From assembly GCF_003384935.1 (NCBI RefSeq), contig NZ_QTTQ01000012.1, positions 124,001-188,000 on the forward strand: DNA of 64,000 bases, in the 5' to 3' direction. The notes beneath the pieces were generated by a model. The model was not told the DNA's origin. It was given only the letters and a program-made list of their open reading frames with translations, and made no database searches. Positions 30,856 through 45,511 of the stretch are shown here, in pieces (positions within the stretch are counted from its first letter, which is position 1; the number at the start of each line of letters is the position of its first letter). This DNA comes from Lutibacter oceani. GTDB lineage: Bacteria > Bacteroidota > Bacteroidia > Flavobacteriales > Flavobacteriaceae. Position numbers and translations under genes: made by a program.

Positions 30856-31347
30856 CTAAACTAAAACTATTGAATCAATTTTAAGTTTGAAGTCTTCATT
30901 TTTATTATTACCCAATAAAACACCTATTTCATCTAATTCTTTACAAGGAAAATAAGGTAGATTTAATTTTTTACCTCTATAATAAGGTATTAAATCTGCA
31001 AGTTCAATGGTAACTGTTTGCCAGTTTGTTGTGGTATTAAAAAAACTTATATATGAGTGTTGATTATTTTGATTTGATTTGACCCTAAATTGATATCTTT
31101 TTCCATCTCCTTTTATCCGAAGCTTTATTTGTTTGTAGTTTAAAACAGCTATTTTTTTAAATTGATACTTCAATAATGAAAAACCGCCATTATTTTCTAA
31201 TGAAATATTTCCTTCAAAAACTCCATTACCATCAATATCTAATTTAAATGTACCATTTGATTTACCACCCATAACCACATCATCTACAATCACCCATTTT
31301 GATATATTGCTTAGTGTATTAAAATCAAAAATAATAATAGGATTCAT
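30856..31347 (-). CDS. CIA30-family protein
   Basis: 163 residues forming one beta-sandwich domain of the complex-I-intermediate-associated protein 30 type: WVIVDDVVMGGKSNGTFKLD, VFEGNISLENNGGFSLLKYQF, RIKGDGKRYQFRVKS and the closing DEIGVLLGNN. In bacteria the family is carbohydrate-binding-like and of unknown function. It is the last gene of the minus-strand queD-folE operon, 38 bases after the SRPBCC gene, and so is probably part of the light/redox regulon. Confidence 0.82.
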   Translation of the reverse strand: MNPIIIFDFNTLSNISKWVIVDDVVMGGKSNGTFKLDIDGNGVFEGNISLENNGGFSLLKYQFKKIAVLNYKQIKLRIKGDGKRYQFRVKSNQNNQHSYISFFNTTTNWQTVTIELADLIPYYRGKKLNLPYFPCKELDEIGVLLGNNKNEDFKLKIDSIVLV

Positions 31348-31385: not shown

Positions 31386-31868
31386 TTATTTGAATGATCC
31401 AAACAATTCTTCTAGTTTTTTTGTTCTATAATTAAAAATTTCGGTCAATTTTGGCTTCACTATAATTGGATGAAATAATCTTCCTAAAAAGCCAAAAGGA
31501 ATTTTATAGTCAATTACATCTTCCATTTCTACACCACCTGGTATTTCTTTAATAAAATGCTTATGATGCCAAAGTGCATAAGGACCAAACCGCTGCTCGT
31601 CTACAAAATACTGTTTATCAAGCACATGTGTAATTTCCGTAACCCAATTGGTTTTTATCCCTAAAATGGGTGTTACAATATATTGTATTATTTGTCCGGC
31701 AAACATAGGTTTGTTTGCACCAGATAATATATCAAAACTCATATAATCTGGTGTAATTATTTTTAAATTTTTAGGACTCGACAAAAATTCCCAAGCCTCA
31801 TCCACAGATATTGGTAATTTTTGTTTTGATGATAATGTGTATACAGTTCCCTTTGTACTAAACTTCAT
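31386..31868 (-). CDS. SRPBCC-family protein
   Basis: 160 residues with the START/Bet v1-like helix-grip fold: SVDEAWEFLSSPKNLKIITPDYMSFDIL at the start, PILGIKTNWVTEITHV, and the C-terminal helix EIFNYRTKKLEELF. Members bind hydrophobic ligands; some are annotated as cell division inhibitors without good evidence. The TspO gene ends 3 bases upstream, so the two are in one operon. A ligand such as a porphyrin or carotenoid would fit the context but is inference. Confidence 0.8.
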   Translation of the reverse strand: MKFSTKGTVYTLSSKQKLPISVDEAWEFLSSPKNLKIITPDYMSFDILSGANKPMFAGQIIQYIVTPILGIKTNWVTEITHVLDKQYFVDEQRFGPYALWHHKHFIKEIPGGVEMEDVIDYKIPFGFLGRLFHPIIVKPKLTEIFNYRTKKLEELFGSFK

Positions 31869-31871
31869 TTT

Positions 31872-32336
31872 TTAATTTTTAAAATAAACATAGGCATTTA
31901 AACTTATTGCAATTAACAACCAAGTAAAATAAGGTACAATTAACCAAGATTTTAAACCCAAACCACTTCCAAATTGAAATAAATAATAGCCAACTACTGC
32001 TGTTAACAACATAATTTCAATTAAGCCAAAACCAAACTGCTGTTGATTAAAAAAAATGTAATTCCAGGCTATATTCAATATAAATTGAATAAAAAATACC
32101 ATCCAAAAAGTACTTCCCGGTTTTAGAGCCAATAAATGCGCTAAATAAATTGAAAAACAAATCATAATGGTAGTCCAGGCAACTCCAAAAAACCAACCTG
32201 GAGGTGTCCAAGGTGCCCTGTTTAAATTTAAATACCAATTAGCTTGCGGACCGTTATTCATTAAATAACTTCCAATTGCCAAAGCACCAAAATTTAGTAT
32301 TAAAAATAATAATATGTATTGTATGTGTGTACTCAA
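31872..32336 (-). CDS. tspO: TspO/MBR-family membrane protein
   Basis: 154 residues, five membrane helices and the tryptophan-rich family signature APWTPPGWFFGVAWT plus WNYIFF. TspO binds and may break down porphyrins; in Rhodobacter it tunes pigment genes to light and oxygen. Its place in an operon with pterin and peroxidase genes facing a carotenoid cluster fits a role in photo-oxidative stress. The glutathione peroxidase gene ends one base upstream. Confidence 0.94.
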   Translation of the reverse strand: MSTHIQYILLFLILNFGALAIGSYLMNNGPQANWYLNLNRAPWTPPGWFFGVAWTTIMICFSIYLAHLLALKPGSTFWMVFFIQFILNIAWNYIFFNQQQFGFGLIEIMLLTAVVGYYLFQFGSGLGLKSWLIVPYFTWLLIAISLNAYVYFKN

Positions 32337-32337
32337 A

Positions 32338-32898
32338 TTATTTTAAATGATTTATTATTTTTGAACTCATTGGTTTTGTTATTGAGTAATAAAAATCGAT
32401 ATAATTTCCGTTTTCATCAATCAAATACTTTTGAAAATTCCATTTTACTGAAGAGCTTTTCACACCGTTTAAATCCTTATTTGTTAACCAAGCATATAAT
32501 GGATGTTGGTTTTCACCTTTTACATCAACCTTTTCTGTCATTAAAAATGTAACTCCATAATTAACTTCACAAAAAGTCTTAATCTCACTTAAAGTTCCCG
32601 GCTCTTGACCTCCAAATTGATTACACGGAACTCCAATTACAACCAATTTATCTTTGTATGTTTTGTACAATTTTTCTAAATCTTCATATTGACCAGTAAA
32701 ACCACATTCTGATGCAGTATTCACAAATAATATTTTTTTTCCTTTAAAATTTTTTAAATTAATGGGCTCTCCTGTGATACTATTAATTGAAATATCATAT
32801 AAAGATGATTGCTGTATTTTATCCATTTTTTTTGAATTTGTTTCTTTTATAAAAAATACTGAAAGTATTATACTTGTTATTAAACCTGCTATTTTCAT
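32338..32898 (-). CDS. Glutathione peroxidase-family peroxidase
   Basis: 186 residues with an N-terminal hydrophobic segment that may export or anchor it. Catalytic residues of the family are visible: Cys in NTASECGFTGQYEDL, Gln in CNQFGGQEPG, Trp and Asn in VKWNFQKYL. Bacterial members usually take electrons from thioredoxin, not glutathione. Within this operon it would remove peroxides made under light. Confidence 0.92.
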   Translation of the reverse strand: MKIAGLITSIILSVFFIKETNSKKMDKIQQSSLYDISINSITGEPINLKNFKGKKILFVNTASECGFTGQYEDLEKLYKTYKDKLVVIGVPCNQFGGQEPGTLSEIKTFCEVNYGVTFLMTEKVDVKGENQHPLYAWLTNKDLNGVKSSSVKWNFQKYLIDENGNYIDFYYSITKPMSSKIINHLK

Positions 32899-32915: not shown

Positions 32916-33599
32916 TTAATTTTTAAATGTAGTGATTCCACAATCCATTTCAAATATTTGACCTGACATTGATGCTGATTTTTCTGAAATTAAAAACTCA
33001 GCCATAGCAGCTACCTCATTTGGACTTAAATATTTTTTTAACGGATGCCTTTCAATCATTTGCTCTTTTTGCCTATCATTTCTCAATAATTTTGCAGCCA
33101 AAGTTGTATCTGTTACTGTGGGTGCAATTGCATTTACTCTAACTTTTGGAGCATACTCTGCTGCCAAAGATTTTACAAGACCTTCAATTGCAGATTTTAC
33201 ACTAGCAACACTTGTGTGAAAAGGCATACCTAATTTAGAAGCAACTGTACTAAATAAGAGGATACTTGAGTTTTCAGCTTCTTTTAAATTTGGCATATAT
33301 TTTTGAATAGCTTTTACCGCACCAATAAAATTAATTTCGTAATCACTTTTAAAATCTTCAATCTTTAAACGCTCAAAAGGTTTTAAATTTATGCTACCTG
33401 GACAATAAATTAATGTGTCAACCTTCTCTAAATTTGGCAATTCATCCGTCAAAATATTACAATTATAATGTGTTAAATTTTGATGTGTAAATTCTGGCTG
33501 AGACCGGCTAATATTAATTATATTACAAGTATCCAACAATAAATTAGAAATTGCTTTCCCTATTCCTTTACTTCCTCCAATTATTAAAACTGTTTTCAT
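32916..33599 (-). CDS. Short-chain dehydrogenase/reductase
   Basis: 227 residues, classical SDR: GGSKGIGKAI nucleotide loop, then catalytic Ser in LLFSTVASK. The usual YxxxK Tyr position reads HTSVASVKSAIEGL, so the Tyr appears replaced while Lys is kept. RVNAIAPTVTDT and a C-terminal GQIFEMDCGIT follow. Together with folE and a PTPS-like gene in the same operon it could act as a pterin (sepiapterin-type) reductase, but this is inference from context. It lies 10 bases after the frameshifted small gene. Confidence 0.82.
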   Translation of the reverse strand: MKTVLIIGGSKGIGKAISNLLLDTCNIINISRSQPEFTHQNLTHYNCNILTDELPNLEKVDTLIYCPGSINLKPFERLKIEDFKSDYEINFIGAVKAIQKYMPNLKEAENSSILLFSTVASKLGMPFHTSVASVKSAIEGLVKSLAAEYAPKVRVNAIAPTVTDTTLAAKLLRNDRQKEQMIERHPLKKYLSPNEVAAMAEFLISEKSASMSGQIFEMDCGITTFKN

Positions 33600-33821: not shown

Positions 33822-34523
33822 TTACAATTTCAAATAGTTTTGAAGTTCAACAATTTTTTCAGGTGTATTGAATACGCCACCATAATAACTTGTTACTGTT
33901 GCCGAAGAATCGTCTTTAATACCTCTCGAAGCTACACATAAATGCTTCGCATCTACAATAACAGCAATATCTTTGGTGTCTAAAATTTCAGCTAGTTCTA
34001 ATGCAATTTGATTAGTTAATCGCTCTTGTACTTGTGGTCTGTTTGCAAAGTATTGTACAATTCTATTAATTTTTGAAAGCCCAATTACTTTTCCTGAAGA
34101 AACATAAGCAACGTGAACTTTACCAAAAATTGGCACAAAATGATGTTCACAATTAGAATAAAACTGAATATTTTTTTCAACCAACATTTGGTTATACTTA
34201 TATTTATTTTCGAACAATGCTATTTTAGGTTTGTTTGCTGGATTTAATCCAGAAAATATTTCTTCAATATACATTTTAGCAACCCTTTTTGGAGTTCCTT
34301 TTAAAGAATCGTCGGTTAAATCCAATCCCATTACCTCCATTATTTGTGAAAATAAATTAGCAATTTTATCTTTCTTTTCTTCATCAGAAATGTCAAAAGC
34401 ATCAGCTGTTAAAGGAGTTTCAATACCGGTATATAAATGGTCGTCTCCAATTTCATCAAAAGTAAAACCGTTTAGTTTTGTTCCATTAATAGGGAACTTC
34501 AACAAAGTTTCTTGGTGTTTCAT
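33822..34523 (-). CDS. folE: GTP cyclohydrolase I
   Basis: Converts GTP to dihydroneopterin triphosphate, the first step toward folates and other pterins. The 233-residue protein has an N-terminal extension and the conserved core: TPKRVAKMY, YSNCEHHFVPIFGKVHVAY with zinc Cys and His, GLSKINRIVQYFANRPQVQERLT, and the second zinc Cys in KHLCVASRG. It overlaps queD by 38 bases. Pterins could feed a photolyase antenna chromophore, which fits the neighbouring genes. Confidence 0.96.
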   Translation of the reverse strand: MKHQETLLKFPINGTKLNGFTFDEIGDDHLYTGIETPLTADAFDISDEEKKDKIANLFSQIMEVMGLDLTDDSLKGTPKRVAKMYIEEIFSGLNPANKPKIALFENKYKYNQMLVEKNIQFYSNCEHHFVPIFGKVHVAYVSSGKVIGLSKINRIVQYFANRPQVQERLTNQIALELAEILDTKDIAVIVDAKHLCVASRGIKDDSSATVTSYYGGVFNTPEKIVELQNYLKL

Positions 34524-34899
34524 AAAGCTTAATTTTTAGTTCGTAGTTTTCCTCGATAAAAGGCCTTAAAATTTTAAAAATAACAATAGCAATATTTTCT
34601 GCTGTCGGGTTTAAGTTTTTAAATTCCTCAACATCCAAATTCAAATTTTTATGATCAAATTTATCTAATACATGCTTTTTTATTAAACCTGATAACTGCT
34701 TCGTATCTATAACATAACCTGTGTCTTTATTTACAAAACCTATTACTTTTACTTCTAATTCGTAATTATGTCCGTGATAATTTGGATTGTTACATTTACC
34801 AAATACATCCAAATTCTTTGCTTCAGACCAATTTTTATTATGCAATCTGTGAGCAGAATTAAAATGCTCTGATCTAGATACTGCTACTTTAAAATTCAT
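34486..34899 (-). CDS. queD: 6-pyruvoyl-tetrahydropterin synthase / QueD family
   Basis: A 137-residue T-fold enzyme that acts on dihydroneopterin triphosphate, the FolE product. Zinc histidines in EHFNSAHRL and YHGHNY, catalytic Cys in KCNNPNYHG, and the DHKNLN, PTAENIA and ETPRN motifs are all visible. The product could be 6-pyruvoyl- or 6-carboxy-tetrahydropterin. I chose ATG 34899 (MNFKVAVSRSEHF), since a longer frame from 34932 would place the -7 promoter element inside the gene. First gene of the long minus-strand operon. Confidence 0.92.
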   Translation of the reverse strand: MNFKVAVSRSEHFNSAHRLHNKNWSEAKNLDVFGKCNNPNYHGHNYELEVKVIGFVNKDTGYVIDTKQLSGLIKKHVLDKFDHKNLNLDVEEFKNLNPTAENIAIVIFKILRPFIEENYELKIKLYETPRNFVEVPY

Positions 34900-34919
34900 T
34901 TTGTTTATTATTATTTGTA

Positions 34920-34927
34920 CAAACTTA
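34920..34927 (-). promoter_or_regulatory. queD operon promoter, -7 element
   Basis: CAAACTTA on the plus strand is TAAGTTTG on the minus strand, a TAnnTTTG match 20 bases before the queD ATG. No -33 TTTG stands at the expected distance. A second minus-strand candidate, TAGTTTTG (35059-35052), overlaps the TTGTTTAAY operator. Confidence 0.45.
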
Positions 34928-35020
34928 AACATTTTATTTTTAGATTATAAGAATTACTATCAATATAATTTATCATTTAATAAAGATTTAACATTGTTAA
35001 AATTTAAATTATACATAATT

Positions 35021-35056
35021 TTTTGTTTAATTTGTATATATTTACATTAAACAAAA
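35021..35056. promoter_or_regulatory. Inverted-repeat operator A (queD / TetR divergent region)
   Basis: TTTTGTTTAAT (35021-35031) and its exact complement ATTAAACAAAA (35046-35056) are separated by 14 bases. The same half-sites and the same 14-base spacing occur at the crtI promoter and, more weakly, at the MerR gene promoter. The spacer holds a -7-like TATATTTA for the TetR-like gene. A second small palindrome, TTTAACA-T-TGTTAAA, lies at 34987-35001. Confidence 0.7.
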
Positions 35057-35071
35057 CTAAAATTCAGTAAC

Positions 35072-35728
35072 ATGTCAAAAAATAAGAAAATAAATGCCTT
35101 AGAAATTATAACATTATATATGAGTTATATTTTAGACCACAACGCTAAACCTAGCTCTGTTTATGCCTTTGCAAAAGAAAATAAATTTGAAGAAGCTGTT
35201 TTCTACCAGTATTTTGGATCATTTGAAGCTGTTGAGAAATCAATTTTTAATGCTTTTTATGAAAACACAATTAGTGTCTTAGAAAAAAGTAATGACTATA
35301 AAACATTTGATGCTCGCAATAAATTATTGAGTTTTTATTATACCTTTTTTGAAAATTTAACTGCAAACAGAAGTTATATTGTTGCAACATTAGACTCCAA
35401 AAAGTTAGATTTAAAAAAATTGAATGCATTATCTAGTCTCAAAACCAGTTTTGCAGATTACATTAATACACTTGAAATTGAAACTATTGATTTAAAACAA
35501 AAGAACTTGGCTCAAATTCAACAAAAAAGTATTAAAGAAACTGCTTGGCTTCAACTACTGATAACTATAAAATTTTGGTTAGAAGATAGTTCTGTATCCT
35601 TCGAAAAGACTGATATTTTTATTGAAAAATCAGTAAACACAAGCTTTGATTTAATAAACTCAACTCCTTTAAAAAGCATTATTGATTTGGGGAAGTTTTT
35701 ATACAAAGAAAAAATGAACATAAACTAA
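35072..35728 (+). CDS. TetR-like transcriptional regulator
   Basis: 218 residues, all helical. The N-terminal 55 residues fit a TetR-type HTH: NALEIITLYMSYIL, SSVYAFAKENKFEEAVFYQYFGSFEAVEKSIF. The C-terminal domain (about 60-215) would bind a ligand and dimerise. The gene leads a plus-strand series with an ABC1 kinase (7-base gap) and flavin reductase, and faces the queD operon. It may act as a second input on the same operators. Confidence 0.75.
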   Translation: MSKNKKINALEIITLYMSYILDHNAKPSSVYAFAKENKFEEAVFYQYFGSFEAVEKSIFNAFYENTISVLEKSNDYKTFDARNKLLSFYYTFFENLTANRSYIVATLDSKKLDLKKLNALSSLKTSFADYINTLEIETIDLKQKNLAQIQQKSIKETAWLQLLITIKFWLEDSSVSFEKTDIFIEKSVNTSFDLINSTPLKSIIDLGKFLYKEKMNIN

Positions 35729-35735
35729 TAAAACA

Positions 35736-37049
35736 ATGCTAAAAACTATTGATACAATTCCTGTTTCAAAAATACATAGAGCTTCTAAACTAGTACAAAC
35801 TGGCGCAAAAGTTGGTATGAATTACTTAAAATACTACGGTGATAAATTAGTAAGTACTGAAGATGAGGCTAAAGAAAAACTTAACAAAAATAATGCTGAA
35901 GATATTTATGATGGACTAAAAAAATTAAAAGGAAGTGCCTTAAAAGTTGCACAAATGTTGAGTATGGAAAAAAGCGTTTTGCCGCAAGCGTATGTAGAAA
36001 AATTTTCTTTAGCTCAATTTTCTGTTCCACCACTCTCTGCTCCTTTGGTTCTAAAAACATTCAAAAAATATTTTGGAAAAACTCCTTATGAAATTTTTGA
36101 CACTTTTAACGCTAATTCAGTAAATGCTGCAAGTATTGGACAAGTGCATAAAGCTGAAAAAAATGGAAAAAGTTTAGCAGTAAAAATTCAATATCCAGGT
36201 ATTGCAAATAGTATTTCAAGTGATCTTACATTGGTAAAACCTATAGCCATTAGTATGTTTAATATTAAAGGAAAAGATTCTGATAAATATTTTAAAGAAG
36301 TTGAAGATAAATTAATTGAAGAAACCAACTACTTAATTGAAATTAAGCAAAGTAAAGAAATTTCTGAAGCTTGTAAGCATATTCCTAACTTAAAATTCCC
36401 TGCATATTATACAGAATTTTCTTCGGAAAGAATTATTACTATGGATTGGATGCACGGCGAACATTTATCTGAATTCACCGCTCACAATACCGATGTACAT
36501 AAATCTAACAAACTAGGACAAGCATTATGGGATTTTTATATGTATCAAATTCATTCACTAAAAAAAGTTCATGCTGATCCACATCCAGGTAATTTTTTAA
36601 TCTCTAAAGAAGCAGATTTAATTGCGTTGGATTTTGGCTGTATGAAAACAATTCCTGATGATTTTTACATTCCGTATTTTGAACTTGCAAAAAAGAAAAA
36701 CATACAGAATCCAGAAATATTTCAACAAAAATTGTTTGAATTAGAAATTTTAAGAGATGATGATTCAGAAGAAGAATTAGCATTTTTCACTGCAATGTTT
36801 CACGATATGTTAAGCTTATTTACACAACCTTTTCATCAAGAAATATTTGATTTTTCTAATCCAAATTTCTTTAAACAAATAGCAGAATTAGGTGAACGCT
36901 ATTCAAAAAACACAGAACTTAAAAAAATGAATGGCAATAGAGGCTCTAAACATTTTATTTACATTAACAGAACGTTTTTTGGGCTCTATAATTTAATGTT
37001 CGATTTAAAGGCTACGAAAGTGCACATCAATAATTTTAAAAATTTATAA
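35736..37049 (+). CDS. ABC1/AarF (UbiB-COQ8) family atypical kinase
   Basis: 437 residues. The family motifs are present: KGSALKVAQMLSM (the KxGQ position, here KVAQ), the Ala-rich loop NAASIGQVHKA, VKIQYPGI with the ATP-site Lys, HADPHPGNFLI catalytic loop and ALDFGCM (DFG). COQ8-type proteins support quinone or other lipid synthesis by an ATPase action. The last residue codons overlap the flavin reductase start by 1 base. The role in this cluster is unknown. Confidence 0.9.
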   Translation: MLKTIDTIPVSKIHRASKLVQTGAKVGMNYLKYYGDKLVSTEDEAKEKLNKNNAEDIYDGLKKLKGSALKVAQMLSMEKSVLPQAYVEKFSLAQFSVPPLSAPLVLKTFKKYFGKTPYEIFDTFNANSVNAASIGQVHKAEKNGKSLAVKIQYPGIANSISSDLTLVKPIAISMFNIKGKDSDKYFKEVEDKLIEETNYLIEIKQSKEISEACKHIPNLKFPAYYTEFSSERIITMDWMHGEHLSEFTAHNTDVHKSNKLGQALWDFYMYQIHSLKKVHADPHPGNFLISKEADLIALDFGCMKTIPDDFYIPYFELAKKKNIQNPEIFQQKLFELEILRDDDSEEELAFFTAMFHDMLSLFTQPFHQEIFDFSNPNFFKQIAELGERYSKNTELKKMNGNRGSKHFIYINRTFFGLYNLMFDLKATKVHINNFKNL

Positions 37050-37666
37050 TGGCTCATTTTAATATTGATGAAATCCATCAATTAGAACATTTATATAAAA
37101 TAAACCTTATTAATAGTTGCGCCGGTTATAAATCAGCCAACTTAATTGCAACTAAATCTACTGAAAACAACACAAATGTTGCCATATTTAGTTCTGTGAT
37201 ACACTTGGGTTCTACACCTCCGTTATTAGGTTTTATTTTAAGACCAACATCAGTACCTAGAAACACTTATGAAAATATTATAAAAACTGGTTTTTACACC
37301 ATAAATCATATCCACAAAAATATTCTAAAAGATGCACATCATACATCGGCTAAATATAAAAGCACTATTTCAGAATTTGATGTTACCAATTTAGAAACCG
37401 ATTATAAAAAAAACTTTTTTGCGCCATTTGTTAAAGATTGTCCTATTCAAATTGGTATGAAATATATTGAAGAATATGATATAAAATTGAATAATACAAA
37501 ACTTGTAATTGGTGAAATTCAAGAATTGCATATTAAAGATGAATTGATACAAAAAGATGGATTTATTAATTTATCAGAAGGAAATATTGCAACAATTAAT
37601 GGTCTAAATGGTTATGCAATTCCAAAATTAAAAGAACGGTTTGAATACCAAAGACCCATAAAATAG
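37049..37666 (+). CDS. Flavin reductase-like (FMN-binding split barrel) protein
   Basis: 205 residues of the flavin-reductase-like split-barrel family: NLINSCAGYKSANLIATKS, IFSSVIHLGSTPPLLGFILRP, NTYENIIKTGFYTINHI, and CPIQIGMKYIEEYDI. Such proteins bind FMN and reduce flavins or act as oxygenase partners. It overlaps the ABC1 kinase gene by one base (TAATG), so it is in the same operon. Reduced flavin for the photolyase or carotenoid enzymes is a possible use. Confidence 0.85.
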   Translation: MAHFNIDEIHQLEHLYKINLINSCAGYKSANLIATKSTENNTNVAIFSSVIHLGSTPPLLGFILRPTSVPRNTYENIIKTGFYTINHIHKNILKDAHHTSAKYKSTISEFDVTNLETDYKKNFFAPFVKDCPIQIGMKYIEEYDIKLNNTKLVIGEIQELHIKDELIQKDGFINLSEGNIATINGLNGYAIPKLKERFEYQRPIK

Positions 37667-37819
37667 CTATCTTTATATAGTTAAATAAGTGATAGGCACT
37701 CAATAGTTGGCATTTTTTATAAACAATAGCCCATTTAACTGTTATTCCTCCCTGCGCAGAAATAACAAAAATGATTAAGAGGAACTATAATAAGATTTTA
37801 ATCTTTAACTTAATAATAC

Positions 37820-39244
37820 ATGAAAATTCTAGTTACAGGAGCAACTGGCTATATTGGAAAACGTTTAATACCGCTGTTATTAAACGATGGGCATAGCATT
37901 GTTTGTACTGTACGAGATAAAAACAGAGTTCCAAAAAATTTTATAAACGACAAAAAAATAAGTATTGTAGAAATCGATTTTTTAAAGCCAGAAACTTTTA
38001 AAAATATCCCAAAAGATATTGATACCGCTTATTATTTAATTCACTCTATGTCAAATTCTACAACTGAATTTCATACGCTGGAAGAAAAATGTGCTCAAAA
38101 TTTCAAAAAATATGTAGAAACAACTACTGTTGAACAAGTAATTTATTTAAGCGGAATTACAAACGACACTAAACTATCTAAACATTTATTATCACGTAAA
38201 AATGTTGAAAAAAGATTAACATCTGATAATTACGCATTAACCACTTTTAAAGCAGGAATTATTGTTGGTTCTGGAAGCTCTTCTTTTGAAATAATTAGAG
38301 ATTTAGTTGAAAAATTACCATTTATGGTAACACCAAAATGGCTTGATACCAAAACACAACCAATTGCTATTAGAGATGTATTAACATTCTTGCAAAGAGC
38401 AATTGGTAAAAAACAACTTTACAATAAATCGTTTGATATTTTTGGCCCAGAAATACTTACTTACAAGCAAATGTTATTGGAATTTGCCGAGATTAGAGGT
38501 TTAAAAAGGTATATTATAACCATTCCATTAATGACTCCAAAACTATCATCATATTGGTTGTATTTTGTTACTTCAACATCTTATAAACTTGCAGCCTCAT
38601 TGGTTAATAGTATGGGCATAGAAATTATTGGGAAACCGAGCAATATTTATAAACAACTAAAAGTACAACCTATTTCTTATAGAGAGGCTGTAGAAAATGC
38701 ATTTGTAAAAATTAAACAAAATAGTATAGTTTCAAGTTGGAAAGATTCATTTATTAGCAGTGCTTTGGAAAGTGATTTGCACAAACATATTAATGTACCA
38801 ACTTATGGGTGTTATACCGATAAAGAACAACGTACTATAAAAGATATAAATTATAGCTTAGAAAAAATATGGTCGATAGGAGGAGAAAATGGCTGGTATT
38901 ACGCTACTTTTTTATGGAAATTACGTGGTTATTTAGATAAATTTTTTGGCGGAATTGGTTTAAGGCGCGGACGTACGCATCCTACAGAATTAAACAATGG
39001 AGATTCTTTAGATTTTTGGCGTGTTATTTATGTAAATAAAGAAGCTAAAAAACTATTATTATATGCTGAAATGAAACTTCCCGGTGAAGCTTGGTTAGAA
39101 TTTAAAATTGAAAATAATATTTTGTATCAAACTGCTACATTTAGACCCCAGGGTATTGCTGGAAGATTGTATTGGTATACTGTTACACCTTTTCATTGGT
39201 TTGTTTTTAATGGTATGATTTCAAAATTAGCAAAATCACCTTAA
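37820..39244 (+). CDS. NAD(P)-binding SDR fused to DUF2867 domain
   Basis: 474 residues. The N-terminal half (about 1-295) is an extended or atypical SDR with GATGYIGKRLIPLL and DTAYYLIHSM. The C-terminal part (about 315-470) is the DUF2867 domain (IWSIGGENGWYYATFLWKLRGYLDKFFGG, GDSLDFWRV, FRPQGIAGRLYWYTVTPFHWFVF). The substrate is unknown. It ends 2 bases before the end of the convergent photolyase gene. The 153-base gap upstream contains a 7-bp inverted repeat (37740-37746/37761-37767), also with 14-base spacing. Confidence 0.86.
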   Translation: MKILVTGATGYIGKRLIPLLLNDGHSIVCTVRDKNRVPKNFINDKKISIVEIDFLKPETFKNIPKDIDTAYYLIHSMSNSTTEFHTLEEKCAQNFKKYVETTTVEQVIYLSGITNDTKLSKHLLSRKNVEKRLTSDNYALTTFKAGIIVGSGSSSFEIIRDLVEKLPFMVTPKWLDTKTQPIAIRDVLTFLQRAIGKKQLYNKSFDIFGPEILTYKQMLLEFAEIRGLKRYIITIPLMTPKLSSYWLYFVTSTSYKLAASLVNSMGIEIIGKPSNIYKQLKVQPISYREAVENAFVKIKQNSIVSSWKDSFISSALESDLHKHINVPTYGCYTDKEQRTIKDINYSLEKIWSIGGENGWYYATFLWKLRGYLDKFFGGIGLRRGRTHPTELNNGDSLDFWRVIYVNKEAKKLLLYAEMKLPGEAWLEFKIENNILYQTATFRPQGIAGRLYWYTVTPFHWFVFNGMISKLAKSP

Positions 39245-39246
39245 AA

Positions 39247-40533
39247 TTATTGTACTAAAGATTTTTTCACAACCTCTAAATAGCGTAAACGTGCAAATTT
39301 GTGCTCAACAATTTCTGGAATATTTTTATAATTAGGATTCCATTTTTTAATGTATTTAAAATCTGAGTCAAATTTTTGTTGCTGTGTTGTTGGATTAAAA
39401 ACTCTAAAATAAGGAGCAGAATCGCAACCTGTACCAGCAACCCATTGCCAGTTCCCGTTATTTGCTGCTAAATCGTAATCCAATAATTTTTCTGCAAAAT
39501 AAGCTTCGCCCCAGCGCCAATCTATTAATAAATGTTTGTTTAAAAAACTTGCAACTATCATTCTAACTCGGTTGTGCATATATCCAGTTTCATTTAACTC
39601 ACGCATACCAGCATCAACAATCGGATAGCCTGTATTACCTTCACACCACAATTTAAATTCTTCTTCATTATTTCTCCAAGGAATAAAATTGTATTTCGAT
39701 TTAAAATTTTCATTAACAACTTTAGGAAAATGATACAATATCTGCATAAAAAATTCCCTCCAGATAAGCTCATTACAATACGTTATATTTTTAGTTTGTG
39801 CATATTTAAAAAGTTTACGTGTACTTATTAACCCAAACCTTAAATACACAGAATTATTAGAAGTATTTATAATTGGTAGATCTCTAAAATTTTGATAATC
39901 TAAAATTGCATTTTTATTTATTTGTCTAACTTTTATAGCACTTTCCGTAAAACCAATATTTTTTAACGAAGGAAAATTATGAATTAATTTTATAAAATTT
40001 TCTTTATAATTTTCCGAAAGAAAAAATTCTTGTTTTTGGCTATTAAATAAATTCCACCATTTATTTTTATATGGCGTATAAACTGTGTATGGTTTTCCAT
40101 CATCTTTTAAAACTTCACCTGCTTCAAAAATAACCTGATCTTTGTATGAATTTACTTCTATATTATTTTCAACACATAATTGAGTAATTTCAGCATCTCT
40201 TTTAATTGCGTAAGGCTCGTAATCTTTATTAAAAAAAACTTTTTTAATATTGCATGTATTTAAAAGTGTTTTCCAAACAGTGATTACATTCCCCTTTTTT
40301 ACATATAACGAAGAATTACTTTCAACCAAATCCGTATTTAGTTTGCTTAAAGTTTCATAAATAAAATTTACCCTGGCATCATCTTTAGGTAATTCATCTA
40401 AAATGGATTCGTCAAAAATAAAAATTGGAAGTACAGGATATTTAGAATTTAAAGCATAATACAGGGCGGTATTATCATGCAATCTTAAATCTCTTCGAAA
40501 CCAAAAAATTGAAATTTCTTTTTTATTTGTCAT
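39247..40533 (-). CDS. phr: Cryptochrome/photolyase family, probable class I CPD photolyase
   Basis: 428 residues. It uses light to split pyrimidine dimers. N-terminal antenna domain (ISIFWFRRDLRLHDNTAL), then the FAD domain: WREFFMQILYHFP, WCEGNTGYPIVDAGMRELNETGYMHNR, DLAANNGNWQWVAGTGCDSAPYFRVFNP. This last motif, with Asn near the FAD N5, is typical of CPD photolyases. The pterin genes across the cluster could supply its antenna chromophore. The start overlaps the lycopene cyclase gene by 11 bases, so it belongs to the carotenoid operon. Confidence 0.93.
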   Translation of the reverse strand: MTNKKEISIFWFRRDLRLHDNTALYYALNSKYPVLPIFIFDESILDELPKDDARVNFIYETLSKLNTDLVESNSSLYVKKGNVITVWKTLLNTCNIKKVFFNKDYEPYAIKRDAEITQLCVENNIEVNSYKDQVIFEAGEVLKDDGKPYTVYTPYKNKWWNLFNSQKQEFFLSENYKENFIKLIHNFPSLKNIGFTESAIKVRQINKNAILDYQNFRDLPIINTSNNSVYLRFGLISTRKLFKYAQTKNITYCNELIWREFFMQILYHFPKVVNENFKSKYNFIPWRNNEEEFKLWCEGNTGYPIVDAGMRELNETGYMHNRVRMIVASFLNKHLLIDWRWGEAYFAEKLLDYDLAANNGNWQWVAGTGCDSAPYFRVFNPTTQQQKFDSDFKYIKKWNPNYKNIPEIVEHKFARLRYLEVVKKSLVQ

Positions 40534-41221
40534 GCTGTTTAGAAAACTTTAGTTTAAATTCCTTAATCAAAATAATTGCTGCATACAACATATTAAATGC
40601 ATAAAAAATATCTTCTAATGGAATAGTTCCTATACGTATTCTTAAATTTTCTGCATTATTATACCAAACAACTTGCTCTTCAATAAAACTTCCTGTTAAT
40701 AAACCATTTACTATAAAAAATGGAATGAGTATAACCAAAAAAGTTATAAAGAAAGCGTTTAAAATACTGCTTTTACATAATAAAGAATAAATTAAAAGCA
40801 TCGCAAAAAATGAAAAATTTATTAAAGTGTACAACCTATTATAATTAAAAAATAAAACTATAATTGATCCTGAAATTAACAAAATAGTCAACCGTTTTAC
40901 TACCTTTTTTGGCAATCCTAAATTTGGAAAAAAATGCAGCAACGCAAAGTGAGTAAAAATGCTTGCGTACGGAATACAAAAAAAGAAAAGTACCTCTTCA
41001 AAAGGTAAATTAAAAACAGTAAAGCCAAGTAAATATTTTTCATTAAACCCCCAAACACCAATACTTGTAAACCATACGTCCCAAATTAAAAAAGGAATTG
41101 CAACAATTAAAATAGCTAGAAATACTGATTTCCAATATTGTATAAAATTCATTTTTTTTTGAAAACTATACAAAAACGGTACTGAAAAAGATGCAATATT
41201 TATTAAGAAATATAAATACAT
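40523..41221 (-). CDS. crtY: Lycopene beta-cyclase, fused CrtYc/CrtYd type
   Basis: 232 residues, about seven membrane helices, with two lycopene cyclase domains in tandem. Each has the carboxylate motif: FNLPFEEVLFFFCIPYA in the first and GTIPLEDIFYAFNML in the second. This is the membrane type found in Bacteroidota and Actinobacteria, unrelated to the flavoprotein CrtY. It turns lycopene into beta-carotene. The start touches the stop of crtZ (TAATG) and the end overlaps phr. Confidence 0.9.
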   Translation of the reverse strand: MYLYFLINIASFSVPFLYSFQKKMNFIQYWKSVFLAILIVAIPFLIWDVWFTSIGVWGFNEKYLLGFTVFNLPFEEVLFFFCIPYASIFTHFALLHFFPNLGLPKKVVKRLTILLISGSIIVLFFNYNRLYTLINFSFFAMLLIYSLLCKSSILNAFFITFLVILIPFFIVNGLLTGSFIEEQVVWYNNAENLRIRIGTIPLEDIFYAFNMLYAAIILIKEFKLKFSKQHDK

Positions 41222-41661
41222 TAAATTCTAAAATATTTTTTAGGCACATTTAACATTCCAAAGCATTCACCTTCTTCCTTACCCAAGTGCTTATGATGTA
41301 CTTTATGGGCTTTACGTAAACCAATTAAATATTTATTTTTTGTATTTTTAAACCACTTAAAACGCTGGTGAATTAACACATCATGAATTAAAAAATATGC
41401 TATACCATAAAATAAGATCCCTAATCCTATAAAAAATTTATAATTTAAACCACCTTGTAAACCAAAATAAAATAATAAAATACTTGGTACTGCAAAAATA
41501 ATAAAGAATACATCATTTCGCTCAAAATCGTTTTGATACCTTGGCTGATGATGGTCTTCGTGAAAATACCACATAAAACCATGCATTACATATTTATGTG
41601 TTAACCAGGTAACGCATTCCATTAAAATAAATGTTATTAGTGTTATTAATACAAACATCAT
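41221..41661 (-). CDS. crtZ: Beta-carotene hydroxylase
   Basis: 146 residues, membrane di-iron hydroxylase with the conserved His clusters: HKYVMH, HEDHHQPRY, HDVLIHQRF and HKVHHKH. It makes zeaxanthin from beta-carotene. The start ATG overlaps the stop of the preceding gene (ATGA), and a second ATG directly follows. Together with crtB, crtI and the cyclase it gives a full lycopene-to-zeaxanthin set; a GGPP synthase must be elsewhere. Confidence 0.94.
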   Translation of the reverse strand: MMFVLITLITFILMECVTWLTHKYVMHGFMWYFHEDHHQPRYQNDFERNDVFFIIFAVPSILLFYFGLQGGLNYKFFIGLGILFYGIAYFLIHDVLIHQRFKWFKNTKNKYLIGLRKAHKVHHKHLGKEEGECFGMLNVPKKYFRI

Positions 41662-42155
41662 ATCTCGTTTAATAATTGTTTAAGTTTTAGTTCTTTTTGA
41701 TACGTGATTTTTTTTGATATTAACATATTCTGTAACATTTTAACTTTAAAAGAGCCTTTTAAGGCACTCAACTTAACTTGTTTTGTTATCAACAAAAAAT
41801 CTTCTTCAATGTTATTATTGTAACTTAAAAAATCGGGCATTTCACTTTGAAGCAAAAAACGTATATATCTAATTTCAATATTGTTTTGGTTATTACTTAT
41901 CAGCTCATCCAATAATAATTTACCTTTTTTAAAGTATTTTAATTTTGTTAAAGGAAACTTTACATATTTCGATTTCATAAAAAACATTGCTGCAAAATAG
42001 CCTTGCAATGTTTCGTCTTCTTCATTTTTAAGTTCCTCTAAATATTTTTCAGTTTGTTCTAAAGATTGAATTTCGGGAAATTGTTTTCTTAAATCTTCAA
42101 GTTTGGAATTTGAAAACAATAAACTAAATATCAAAATAAAACCGAATACTTTCAT
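41658..42155 (-). CDS. Exported protein of unknown function in the carotenoid operon
   Basis: 165 residues with a short signal peptide (MKVFGFILIFSLLFS). The rest is helical and charged (EQTEKYLEELKNEEDETLQGYFAAMFFMKSKY, NQNNIEIRYIRFLLQSEMPDFL). I do not recognise a named domain. It is tightly placed between crtB (9-base gap) and crtZ (4-base overlap), so it is co-expressed with pigment genes and probably acts at the membrane or periplasm with them. Confidence 0.7.
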   Translation of the reverse strand: MKVFGFILIFSLLFSNSKLEDLRKQFPEIQSLEQTEKYLEELKNEEDETLQGYFAAMFFMKSKYVKFPLTKLKYFKKGKLLLDELISNNQNNIEIRYIRFLLQSEMPDFLSYNNNIEEDFLLITKQVKLSALKGSFKVKMLQNMLISKKITYQKELKLKQLLNEI

Positions 42156-42164
42156 TTAATTATT

Positions 42165-43004
42165 TTACATTAAATTTAATTTAAAGACTAGAAAAGACCT
42201 CGCTAACAAACTTATCTTCATTGGGTTAGAAACTCTAATTCTTGTGTGCATTATTTTTTCTGATGGAGTTTTTTTCAATTTTTTAAGCAATCTTCTATAA
42301 TAAATAAATGCTGTATACACACCAAATTTAGCTTCAATTGGTAACAATTTTATTCCTTTATAAGCCTCGTGAAAGTCGTACTCAATTTCTTCTATTATTT
42401 TATATTTTGAATCATAATTTAACGTTTTAAAATCCACACCTGGAAAATAAGAACGATTTAGCACTTCATAATCATCTTTTAAATCACGTAAAAAATTCAC
42501 TTTTTGAAATGCGGACCCCAAACTCATTGCATAATTTTTAAGGCTTTCGTATTTTTCGTCATCTCCATTTACAAAAACTTTTAAACACATTAATCCAACC
42601 ACATCAGCTGACCCATAAATATAATTATTAAATTCTTCAACCGTATTATAATCCGTTTTATTTAAATCTAACTTCATACTCTTTAAAAAAGCCTGAACTA
42701 AATCATCTGTAATTTTATATTTTTTTACTGTAAGTTGAAAACAGTTTAAAATTGGGTTTAAACTAATTCCGGAATTATAGGCCTTATAATAATCAGCTTC
42801 AAATTCATTTATTAATTGGTTTTTATCAAATCCATGAAAAGAATCAACAATTTCATCAGCAAATCTAACAAAAGCATAAATACTAAATATATCTTCCCTA
42901 ATTTTTGGGGATAACATTTTTACTGCCAAAGAAAATGATGTGCTGTATTTTTTTGTAACTATTTTGCTACATAAAAAAGAGGTATCATCAAAAAGTTGTT
43001 TCAT
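42165..43004 (-). CDS. crtB: Phytoene synthase
   Basis: 279 residues of the squalene/phytoene synthase family. It condenses two GGPP to phytoene. The two Asp-rich motifs are DEIVD (in YAFVRFADEIVDSF) and DLKDD (in QKVNFLRDLKDDYE), and the YGSADVVGLMCL helix is present. Length is typical. It follows crtI by 35 bases in the same operon. Confidence 0.95.
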   Translation of the reverse strand: MKQLFDDTSFLCSKIVTKKYSTSFSLAVKMLSPKIREDIFSIYAFVRFADEIVDSFHGFDKNQLINEFEADYYKAYNSGISLNPILNCFQLTVKKYKITDDLVQAFLKSMKLDLNKTDYNTVEEFNNYIYGSADVVGLMCLKVFVNGDDEKYESLKNYAMSLGSAFQKVNFLRDLKDDYEVLNRSYFPGVDFKTLNYDSKYKIIEEIEYDFHEAYKGIKLLPIEAKFGVYTAFIYYRRLLKKLKKTPSEKIMHTRIRVSNPMKISLLARSFLVFKLNLM

Positions 43005-43039
43005 AAAATTAAATTTTAATTAGTAGTAATTTCTTTTAC

Positions 43040-44503
43040 TTAAACTGATTTTTTCATAACTAATTCCGAAACAATTTTTCCAGAAATAATAGCTGGAGGA
43101 ACACCTGGTCCCGGAACTGTTAACTGACCTGTAAAAAATAAATTTTTCACTTTTTTACTTCTAATTTTAGGTCTTAAAACCGCTGTTTGCATTAAAGTAT
43201 TTGCTAAACCATAAGCATTCCCTTTGTACGAATTATAATCTTTCTTAAAGTCATTTACACAAAATGATTCTTTAAAAATTACAGCATCACTCAATTTTTG
43301 GTTGGTTAATTTTTCCAATCTTGAAATTATTTTTAAAAAATACTCTTCTCTAACTTCAGGAATATCAACCAATCCCGGAGCTAGTGGAATTAAAAAAGTA
43401 GCAGCTTCCGCTTCAATTGGGGCAAAACTATTATCTGTTACACTAGGGAAACTTGCGTAAAAAAGTGGTTCTTTTGGCCATTTTGGCGTATCATATATAT
43501 CTATAGCATGTTTATCAAAATCGGTGTCAAAAAATAAGGTATGATGACAAACATTTTTAATTTTTTTATTAAATCCAACATAGAAAAGCAACGATGAAGG
43601 AGCAAATGTTTTCTTGCTCCAATAGTTTTCAGAATACATTCTAAACTTTTTATCTAATAAGGATTCAGTATGATGATAATCTGCTCCGCTTATAACAATA
43701 TCTGCTTCTAAAATTTCATTATTAACTTTTACACCCGTAACTTTTCCATTTTCAACAATTATTTTTTCAACATTTTGATTTGCCCTAATTTTAACATTTA
43801 AAGAATGAGCCAACTCAACAAATCCTTTAACAACCTCAAACATCCCACCTTTTGGATGCCAAGTTCCTAAACCAAAATCGGCATAGTTCATGAAATTATA
43901 AAAACTTGGAGTATTAGATGGTTTAGCACCCAAAAACAATACAGGAAATTCTAAAATTTGAATTAGCTTTTTACTTTTTATATTTTTACGGATATCGCTA
44001 CTTATACTTTTAAAAAACTGATTGACTTTTGCTAATGTTGAAAAAGTAATAAGTTCTGTAATGGATTCACCAGGCTTGTAAACCAAGTCGTTTATGGCTA
44101 CTTCATAATTAAATTTAGCAGCTTTTAAAAACTTTTTTAAGAAAACAGAGCTCCCTTTTTCTTCTTCTTCAAATATTTTGTAGATATCATCTAAGTTATC
44201 AGGTATAGTAATTGAGTTTAGTCTATCAAAATAAACTTGGTATGCAGGAGCTAATTTTTCTAATTGATAAAAATCTGAAGGTTTCTTTTCAAAATCCGAG
44301 AAAAATTTCTCAAAAACATCTGGCATCCAGTACCAAGTAGGCCCCATATCAAATTTAAAACCATCCTTAGACAAGACCCGTGCTCTACCTCCCAAGTCTT
44401 TGTTTTTTTCAAGTACTGTTACATCATTACCGTGTTTTGCTAGATAGCTAGCAGCAGATAAAGATGAAAACCCTGAACCTATTATTATAATATTTTTTTT
44501 CAT
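43040..44503 (-). CDS. crtI: Phytoene desaturase
   Basis: 487 residues, FAD-dependent. It makes lycopene from phytoene. The N-terminal FAD-binding motif IIGSGFSSLSAASYLAKHG is followed by LEKNKDLGGRARV, and the C-terminus carries the carotenoid-desaturase motif LFFTGQLTVPGPGVPPAIISG. I chose ATG 44503; the TTG at 44515 would put part of the promoter -7 element into the gene. First gene of the pigment-photolyase operon, with a full promoter and operator B. Confidence 0.95.
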   Translation of the reverse strand: MKKNIIIIGSGFSSLSAASYLAKHGNDVTVLEKNKDLGGRARVLSKDGFKFDMGPTWYWMPDVFEKFFSDFEKKPSDFYQLEKLAPAYQVYFDRLNSITIPDNLDDIYKIFEEEEKGSSVFLKKFLKAAKFNYEVAINDLVYKPGESITELITFSTLAKVNQFFKSISSDIRKNIKSKKLIQILEFPVLFLGAKPSNTPSFYNFMNYADFGLGTWHPKGGMFEVVKGFVELAHSLNVKIRANQNVEKIIVENGKVTGVKVNNEILEADIVISGADYHHTESLLDKKFRMYSENYWSKKTFAPSSLLFYVGFNKKIKNVCHHTLFFDTDFDKHAIDIYDTPKWPKEPLFYASFPSVTDNSFAPIEAEAATFLIPLAPGLVDIPEVREEYFLKIISRLEKLTNQKLSDAVIFKESFCVNDFKKDYNSYKGNAYGLANTLMQTAVLRPKIRSKKVKNLFFTGQLTVPGPGVPPAIISGKIVSELVMKKSV

Positions 44504-44504
44504 A

Positions 44505-44544
44505 TTGTTTAACAAATGTAGTTATAAGTTAAACAAAAAACAAA
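44505..44544 (-). promoter_or_regulatory. crtI promoter and inverted-repeat operator B
   Basis: On the minus strand: TTTG (44544-44541), 20 bases, TACATTTG (44520-44513), a full housekeeping promoter. Lying over it is TTGTTTAAC (44505-44513), 14 bases, GTTAAACAA (44528-44536), a perfect 9-bp inverted repeat with the same spacing as operator A. A bound protein would cover the -7 element, so repression is the likely mode. Confidence 0.75.
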
Positions 44545-44558
44545 TTTATTTTTAAGAT

Positions 44559-45458
44559 TTATAAATTGTCAATCAATTCTATTATAGATTCATATGTTTT
44601 TATATTGGAAAATTCTAAACACTCTGTTGATTCTTTAATTTTTGCTCCCAACAACCACAACTCATTATTTGAACTTGACAAAACCTCTTCTCTTACCTTT
44701 TCAATATATTCCTTAACAGTTAATTGAGTTGGCTCTACAGTTAAATAACTAATAAAACAAATAGAATTAAATACTTTTTGAACGTCGTTTAAATTGCTTA
44801 CCGGAACACTCTGTCCCAAATAAATAGACTGATAGCCGTGTAATAGAATTTCGAAATGCAAATACAGTAAACCTAAATCATGTATTTCATTCATTGGAAG
44901 GTATAATACAAAAACCTTCTCTAAATTAGTTGGTTTAGACAACTGTAATCTTTCAATATTAATCTGTATTTTTTGCTGAATAAGATTTGAAATAAAATGT
45001 TCATGTGCAGGTGTTATGGAATTAACTTGCCAAAGAATCCCTATTTCATTTAAAAAAGGGATGAAAACATTTTTAAAAATTTCTCTGAAAGAAGAATTAA
45101 CAACTAAATTATTATATGTTTCATTAAACATATTTTCATCAAAATTTAACATTGCTAATTTTAAAGAATTAGATGCCTGTTCATTAACACCGGTTTTAGC
45201 TACCAATTCTCTAACTTTTATAGCAATATTTGACTCAGACAATTCTGCTATCTTAGAAATTTTTAAACCATTATTATTTAATAATGCAACGTTTAACAAC
45301 TTTTGAAGATTTTGAAGATTGTAATATCTAATATTAGATTCCGTTCTATTTGGTTCTAATAAGTTATACCGTTTTTCCCATATTCTAATTGTATGAGCTT
45401 TAATTCCAGAAAAATTCTCTAGATCTTTAATTGTGAATTCGGACTTAATATTGTTCAA
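44559..45458 (-). CDS. MerR-family regulator with CarH/LitR-type B12-binding light-sensor domain
   Basis: 299 residues. MerR DNA-binding domain at about 8-75 (FTIKDLENFSGIKAHTIRIWEKRYNLLEPNRTESNIRYYN). The C-terminal domain has the adenosylcobalamin signature of CarH photoreceptors: Trp143, then nine residues, Glu153-His154, and E-I-H-D-L-G (191-196) with the lower-ligand His193. In CarH proteins AdoCbl holds a DNA-bound tetramer in the dark and light releases it, turning on carotenoid genes. The start is TTG 45458; no nearer ATG fits. It lies upstream of crtI on the same strand and has an operator over its own promoter. Confidence 0.9.
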   Translation of the reverse strand: MNNIKSEFTIKDLENFSGIKAHTIRIWEKRYNLLEPNRTESNIRYYNLQNLQKLLNVALLNNNGLKISKIAELSESNIAIKVRELVAKTGVNEQASNSLKLAMLNFDENMFNETYNNLVVNSSFREIFKNVFIPFLNEIGILWQVNSITPAHEHFISNLIQQKIQINIERLQLSKPTNLEKVFVLYLPMNEIHDLGLLYLHFEILLHGYQSIYLGQSVPVSNLNDVQKVFNSICFISYLTVEPTQLTVKEYIEKVREEVLSSSNNELWLLGAKIKESTECLEFSNIKTYESIIELIDNL

Positions 45459-45511
45459 AATTATTTGTATTTAATTAAACAAATATATAAACAAAATCCT
45501 TATAAACAAAA
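45451..45511 (-). promoter_or_regulatory. MerR gene promoter and inverted-repeat operator C
   Basis: Minus strand: TTTG (45511-45508), 20 bases, TATATTTG (45487-45480). Overlapping it is TTGTTCAAA (45451-45459), 14 bases, ATTAAACAA (45474-45482). The right half is exact, the left half has two mismatches to operators A and B. This points to autoregulation. The TTG start codon lies inside the left half-site. Confidence 0.6.

Follow-up and report, generated by a model that had tools for sequence, protein, structure and literature searches.

An inverted-repeat operator shared by a putative light regulon and the gene of a CarH-like MerR-B12 regulator in Lutibacter oceani and other Bacteroidia

CarH, described in Thermus thermophilus, Bacillus megaterium and Myxococcales, is a MerR-type regulator with a B12-binding domain which occupies DNA as a tetramer in the dark and is freed by light (PMC8156234, PMC4557120), and in its operators 11-bp direct repeats or pseudo-repeats are arrayed (PMC9304148, PMC8156234). 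Its relative CarA of Myxococcus, at whose operator inverted repeats have been noted (PMC9304148), is B12-independent, lacks the Trp of the Wx9EH motif and leaves its operator through the action of CarS and not of light itself (PMC9304148, PMC8156234). The class II LitR proteins of Pseudomonas (PplR1, PmlR2) bind inverted repeats, T(G/A)TACA-N12-TGTA(C/T)A, and are released by a LOV partner, the regulators of P. putida acting on phrB and folE (PMC9758184). Photolyase, folE and carotenoid genes are already known as members of LitR/CarH light regulons. Here we analyse a stretch of 64,000 nucleotides of Lutibacter oceani (contig NZ_QTTQ01000012.1, positions 124,001 to 188,000; hereafter, the window), in which a gene encoding a MerR-B12 protein (merR) and the neighbouring carotenoid, photolyase and pterin genes share an inverted repeat, an operator that differs from those described.

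The inverted repeat TTGTTTAA-N16-TTAAACAA (8-bp arms) is found at the three places, with equal spacer, where a sequence-only reading of the window had located it. The strict pattern TTGTTTAAY-N14-RTTAAACAA is exact ahead of tetR (35023-35054, forward strand) and of crtI (44505-44536, reverse strand), and near-exact over the start of merR (45451-45482, reverse strand), with two mismatches to the strict pattern and one to the 8-bp arms. The arms extend to 11 bp at the tetR-side site (35021-35056) and measure 9 bp at crtI, as first described. None of 100 dinucleotide shuffles of the window contained the strict pattern, and the genome-wide search suggested with that reading returned only the two window copies. 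Allowing up to one mismatch in the 8-bp arms, the genome holds seven sites against none for the reversed pattern, which served as control for motif counts. At the three-mismatch level, six matches are found in the window against 2.55 expected (6 of 100 shuffles reach six), and 104 in the whole genome against 122 for the reversed pattern, so that, with no clear excess, evidential weight lies only in the near-exact copies. A fourth, weaker copy, to be added to the original three, lies over the queD promoter (34901-34932, reverse strand; three mismatches to the strict pattern, two to the 8-bp arms), 122 bp from the tetR-side copy, and taken alone is within chance. Among 20 tetR loci of the genus, our own included, 18 carry a site with zero or one mismatch beside tetR, and 13 have a partner copy (up to three mismatches) 117-124 bp away. 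The spacing between arms is 16 in 34 of 56 sites, the remaining 22 being scattered over other values. One locus (L087) has a 17-bp spacer instead.

These copies, their placement on putative promoters, their wide conservation and their co-occurrence with a regulator of predicted CarH-like fold and ligand residues, all read at the level of sequence, point to the MerR-B12 protein as a probable light-sensing repressor of LitR/CarH type that acts on this operator in Bacteroidia. The system resembles CarH in combining a MerR helix-turn-helix with a B12-binding domain that carries Wx9EH and ExH residues, in the carotenoid operon beside the regulator gene, in the operator lying over the promoter, and in the half-site TAAACA, which fits the CarH core TnnACA (PMC9304148). 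It differs from CarH in having, in place of repeat arrays, two inverted half-sites at fixed spacing, and in an altered second part of the B12 motif. The half-sites, TGTTTA...TAAACA, face outward and have their centres 24 bp apart, a distance close to the 22 bp that separates the outer repeats of the Thermus CarH operator. Against a CarH-type tandem array, TnnACA occurs at -11 in a single one of 146 oriented exact sites (73 distinct), the outward side lying outside the scan.

With class II LitR, the locus shares an inverted-repeat operator and a light regulon including photolyase and folE (PMC9758184). Nevertheless, the class II half-sites are 18 bp apart and, by our reading, face the other way, the proteins are described as retaining no more of the B12 domain than its four-helix half and work with a LOV partner, and a carotenoid operon is not named in the accessible part of that account (PMC9758184). 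The conserved motif differs from the class II operator in arms and spacing, a comparison of the two patterns as such, since the class II pattern itself was not searched for. No operator of this kind was found for Bacteroidia in the open literature, most subscription journals being outside its scope, in line with the suggestion of the sequence-only reading that it is undescribed. Two candidate sources were discarded: a Bizionia MerR study, which in its accessible part concerns the iron regulator MliR and names LitR only in the reference list (PMC9478572), and an account of a MarR-type regulator offering, as far as its accessible text goes, no useful operator (PMC6739363).

The regulator is encoded at 44559..45458 (reverse strand) with a TTG start at 45458, and its nearest named relative by protein is that of Lutibacter flavus (90% identity). 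It matches the Pfam families MerR_1 and B12-binding_2, and its predicted structure aligns to CarH over 269 residues, with a MerR DNA-binding domain followed by a C-terminal B12-binding domain in which both the four-helix and the Rossmann halves are modelled confidently. The presence of the Rossmann half, aligned to CarH in the model, speaks against the domain make-up of class II proteins. Other structure-search matches (methionine synthase, AppA, AerR and others) were set aside, since they align mainly over the B12 domain. In both the 18- and the 38-sequence sets, W143, E153 and H154 of the Wx9EH motif are invariant, as are E191 and H193 (the lower ligand His) of the first part of the B12 motif, D/ExHx2G/P; G196 is conserved in 38 of 38 sequences in one alignment (A2) and 16 of 18 in the other (A1). 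T240 and G271 are each found in all 38 close homologues. Four genomes of the genus (G013, G020, G033, G035) encode a second MerR-B12 paralogue, with 37-38% identity.

Several features weigh against a classic B12 photoreceptor. The B12 motif is altered in its second part, SxT/V at x41 followed by GG: the window regulator reads YLT at SxT/V, 37 of 38 close homologues have Tyr at position 238, and of the GG pair the second Gly appears in none of 38 sequences in A2 and none of the 16 aligned in A1. The score against the NCBIfam CarH equivalog NF052513 is 73.1 bits, compared with a cut-off of 400. Furthermore, the cobalamin adenosyltransferase gene present in the L. oceani genome (3.38 Mb) is non-discriminating, being found in 37 of the 38 genomes searched, those devoid of MerR included, and so only permits a B12 model. 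Thus, of the B12-type photoreceptor originally proposed, the fold and the ligand residues stand and the last part of the motif does not; lacking part of the classic motif, the protein is called CarH-like. This alteration, together with the class II precedent of inverted repeats, LOV-partner release and phrB and folE as targets (PMC9758184), could mean that the MerR protein reads the operator and senses some ligand other than B12, or depends on a partner protein in the manner of class II LitR and its LOV protein. Such an alternative is rather unlikely, taking into account that neither Wx9EH nor the ligand His varies even among widely diverged sequences, and that both halves of the B12 domain are confidently modelled and align to CarH.

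The position of the operator relative to the promoters argues for repression. Bacteroidetes promoters follow the consensus TTTG plus TAnnTTTG. On the crtI strand the sequence reads TTTG-N20-TACATTTG-TTAAACAA-T-ATG, with a putative -33 box TTTG (44541..44544, reverse strand) 20 bp from a putative -7 box TACATTTG (44513..44520, reverse strand) that lies within the operator, the start codon (44501-44503) following one base after it. All 26 close MerR loci have a crtI-side site (up to two mismatches), mostly with TATATTTG ahead of the right arm. In queD, a putative -7 box TAAGTTTG (34920..34927, reverse strand) overlaps the left arm of the weak copy; in tetR, no clear promoter box was seen in the window. 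Ten loci (L019, L020, L021, L023, L025, L027, L030, L034, L040 and L180, the last at 1501 and 1543) carry a second operator copy (up to two mismatches) at a distance of 39-42 bp, or nearly four helical turns. In several relatives such a copy stands some 40 bp upstream of the crtI operator; the window has none, the best match there (44540-44549) having six mismatches.

In merR, the gene strand carries TTGTTTAAT...TTGAACAA, and a putative -7 box TATATTTG (45480..45487, reverse strand; consensus of the genus loci) overlaps the left arm. Since the first base of the operator is 24 nt upstream of codon 1, its right arm constitutes the first codons of the gene (codons 1-3, with the first two bases of codon 3), and the start codon within it accounts for the mismatching arm, which the sequence-only reading had called degenerate. 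The same distance is kept, with up to three mismatches, in 54 of 55 merR loci (best matches, L016-L041 and L133-L161), L133 being the exception. The gene start over the operator is TTG AAC AA in 29 of them, ATG AAC AA in 17 and ATG ATA AAC AA in nine, so that the start codon, or ATA where present, is followed by AAC in all 55, compared with 295 of 1229 Asn codons elsewhere in these genes; as the sequences are related, a binomial p for this bias is overstated. The simplest reading is that a constraint at the DNA level acts on the merR coding sequence. In the promoter comparison, rows with cut contigs or wrong offsets were set aside (merR, L032; crtI, L022 and L040; tetR, L089 and L096); the sites of L032, L022 and L040 (merR/crtI) and of L096 (tetR) were taken from separate locus scans, and the L089 contig ends at tetR.

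It might be argued from its MerR-type DNA-binding domain that the MerR-B12 protein is an activator, as classical MerR proteins are, and at TonB-receptor genes with a copy of the motif, this does stand upstream of the likely -7 box. We consider this improbable: the copies at crtI, merR and queD overlie or adjoin the -7 box or the start codon, and a protein bound there would block the polymerase.

The association between operator and regulator was followed across genomes, calling MerR relatives at E <= 1e-20 and TetR relatives at 1e-3. The sample of the order comprises 395 genomes, 80 of which together contain 116 exact sites (the reversed control is found in three), and all 80 are among the 174 that encode a MerR relative, leaving no exact site in the 221 genomes without it (Fisher p 6e-35); family f5, with 75 genomes, has neither motif nor MerR relative. 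In the class-wide sample (295 genomes, 11 of them also in that of the order), MerR is encoded by 84 of the 86 genomes with the motif, compared with 184 of 295 overall. Among genus members, sites with exact 8-bp arms and a spacing of 16 are present in 19 of the 25 genomes that encode a full-length MerR and in one of the 12 that do not, a count that leaves out one genome (G431) whose MerR status was not scored. In this way, the proposal that the sites are one operator and the MerR-B12 protein its partner has gained comparative backing.

Other data pull in the opposite direction. Exact sites are missing from 94 of the 174 MerR-bearing genomes of the order, which speaks against a simple one-to-one link, and from 100 of the 184 of the class. 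Three genomes have an exact motif and no MerR match at 1e-20: G031 of the genus, at queD-folE, and G584 and G711 of the class sample, beside SRPBCC/queD-folE genes. The case of G031 is perhaps an assembly gap, as its assembly has 280 contigs and the relevant one ends inside photolyase. The locus of a 40%-identity homologue (L045) shows no site with up to two mismatches in its 3.8 kb, and none of the co-occurrence p values is corrected for shared ancestry. In another genome (G002; L166, 4381-4800), a merR remnant beside a photolyase fragment at a contig end keeps its merR operator with one mismatch, which looks like cluster decay.

This distribution also bears on a role of the adjacent TetR protein as reader of the motif, if only in the queD-tetR region. 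The exact site ends 17 bp ahead of tetR, a usual spot for a TetR auto-operator, and the conservation at 18 of the 20 tetR loci is compatible with it. Nonetheless, five genomes (G003, G018, G026, G038, G049) combine MerR and exact motifs with no TetR relative, and TetR relatives lack a site in the MerR-less G040 and G053, as well as in the MerR-bearing G039 and G042. TetR therefore fails to explain the motif, and its role as reader is very improbable. A reading of the motif as some generic AT-rich part of promoters or terminators and not a specific operator, as its composition, its overlap with promoter boxes and the lack of excess at three mismatches might suggest, has next to no likelihood, being contradicted by its absence in exact form from 221 MerR-less genomes, the 75 of f5 among them, and by a reversed control appearing in only three of 395.

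If the MerR-B12 protein is a light-sensing repressor, its action can be outlined by analogy with CarH. We infer that it binds the operator and represses from it, with B12 as ligand and light as signal. In the dark, an oligomer bound to adenosylcobalamin would hold the two inverted half-sites and cover the promoter boxes, and in merR the start codon as well. Light would break the cobalamin bond, the protein would leave the operator, and the carotenoid, photolyase, pterin and antioxidant genes would be switched on together with that of the regulator itself, whose autorepression would take place through the weaker site.

In other genera, the operator is found at scattered loci, by crtI, folE/queD, photolyase, SDR, flavin reductase, SRPBCC and merR. 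In a survey of one locus per genome, restricted to the best-listed loci, 17 of 29 order loci and 13 of 20 class loci have a homologue of a window regulon gene no more than 1.5 kb from the exact site, and 15 of 29 loci of relatives with zero or one mismatch are near such a homologue. None of the seven among these that come from MerR-less genomes (G007, G012, G017, G025, G027, G028, G059) is near one. Many order loci stand outside a shared cluster, among them folE (L109, L129), SRPBCC before photolyase (L116), flavin reductase (L119, L120, L123) and an SDR pair (L117). Thus, the photo-oxidative nature first attributed to the flanking operons is backed by comparative evidence, and the compact light system described with it is clustered in the window and not compact in all genera. 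Of the 11 two-mismatch sites of the own genome, one is that of merR and the other ten have no regulon homologue, while the two one-mismatch sites are upstream of TonB-receptor genes. Two different TonB-dependent receptor genes with an upstream motif (L003 and L052; L004 and L055, about 1501-1532) are each present in two species, with 71-72% protein identity.

In seven of the remaining 12 order loci (L106, L107, L111, L115, L124, L126, L128), the gene following the operator encodes a fasciclin (FAS1) protein, as it does in three genus loci (L050, L051, L054), the ten loci (each at about 1501-1532) belonging to several genera, and in G022 merR and crtI are separated by a FAS1 gene. The single FAS1 gene of the own genome has no motif copy (up to three mismatches) in the 3.4 kb examined, so this lead rests on other genomes. 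FAS1 proteins were not found as light-regulon members in the open literature. A green-algal FAS1 protein binds carotenoids and a cyanobacterial homologue did not (PMC10147662), a contrast that leaves pigment binding by operator-linked FAS1 proteins as a suggestion only. The other five order loci (L118, L112, L113, L105, L110) hold heme oxygenase, a fatty-acid-desaturase-family protein, a response regulator or family-less proteins, and MsrA (L132) and an extracytoplasmic function (ECF) sigma factor (L048) are also downstream of sites. In G049, of a distant family (L048, L168), the ECF sigma factor gene separates the operator from crtI, and a MerR with 40% identity is encoded alongside.

In the window, the reverse-strand genes following the crtI operator encode a crtI-type phytoene desaturase (43040..44503), a crtB-like phytoene synthase (42165..43004; below curated cut-offs), a 165-aa protein of no known function (41658..42155), a crtZ-like carotene hydroxylase named from its sequence, with no Pfam or NCBIfam match (41221..41661), a lycopene cyclase domain protein of CarR type (40523..41221) and a DNA photolyase (39247..40533; NCBIfam matches below cut-offs). 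The 165-aa protein, lying between crtB and crtZ, has a homologue in the equal place in G022. A hypothetical gene next to crtB was guessed as light regulator in Chryseobacterium lacus, which has light-induced carotenoids, in an account whose accessible part names no LitR/CarH gene of that organism (PMC7064467); the resemblance of the window gene to it is one of place alone.

On the queD side, also on the reverse strand, are the queD/PTPS-family gene (34486..34899; likely ATG 34897-34899, that of a longer open reading frame falling inside the operator), folE, encoding GTP cyclohydrolase I (33822..34523), and genes for an SDR oxidoreductase (32916..33599; below curated cut-offs), a glutathione-peroxidase family protein (32338..32898), a TspO/MBR family protein (31872..32336), an SRPBCC-like protein (31386..31868), whose homologues follow exact sites in other genera, and a CIA30-like protein (30856..31347) that ends the run, the last two being named from sequence. 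The genome has three PTPS/QueD-family genes (the others at L162 and L164), and within the DNA examined only that of the window has the operator; its company with folE and the SDR gene suggests a dedicated light-linked pterin pathway. On the forward strand follow the TetR_C_23 regulator (35072..35728), an ABC1 atypical kinase (35736..37049), a flavin-reductase-like protein (37049..37666) and an SDR-DUF2867 protein (37820..39244).

Tentatively, and with somewhat more doubt than confidence, Bacteroidia may possess a widespread light regulon whose sensor would sit on inverted half-sites at a 24-bp spacing, a geometry undescribed for CarH, with one half-site forming the first codons of its own gene, and whose FAS1 targets may be carotenoid carriers or light shields. 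The finding provides a searchable operator with which light regulons could be read straight from the genomes of a large bacterial class, and poses the structural question of how a CarH-like oligomer meets inverted instead of direct repeats. In addition, it offers candidate parts for light control in Bacteroidetes and further candidates for photoprotection, FAS1 proteins foremost among them.

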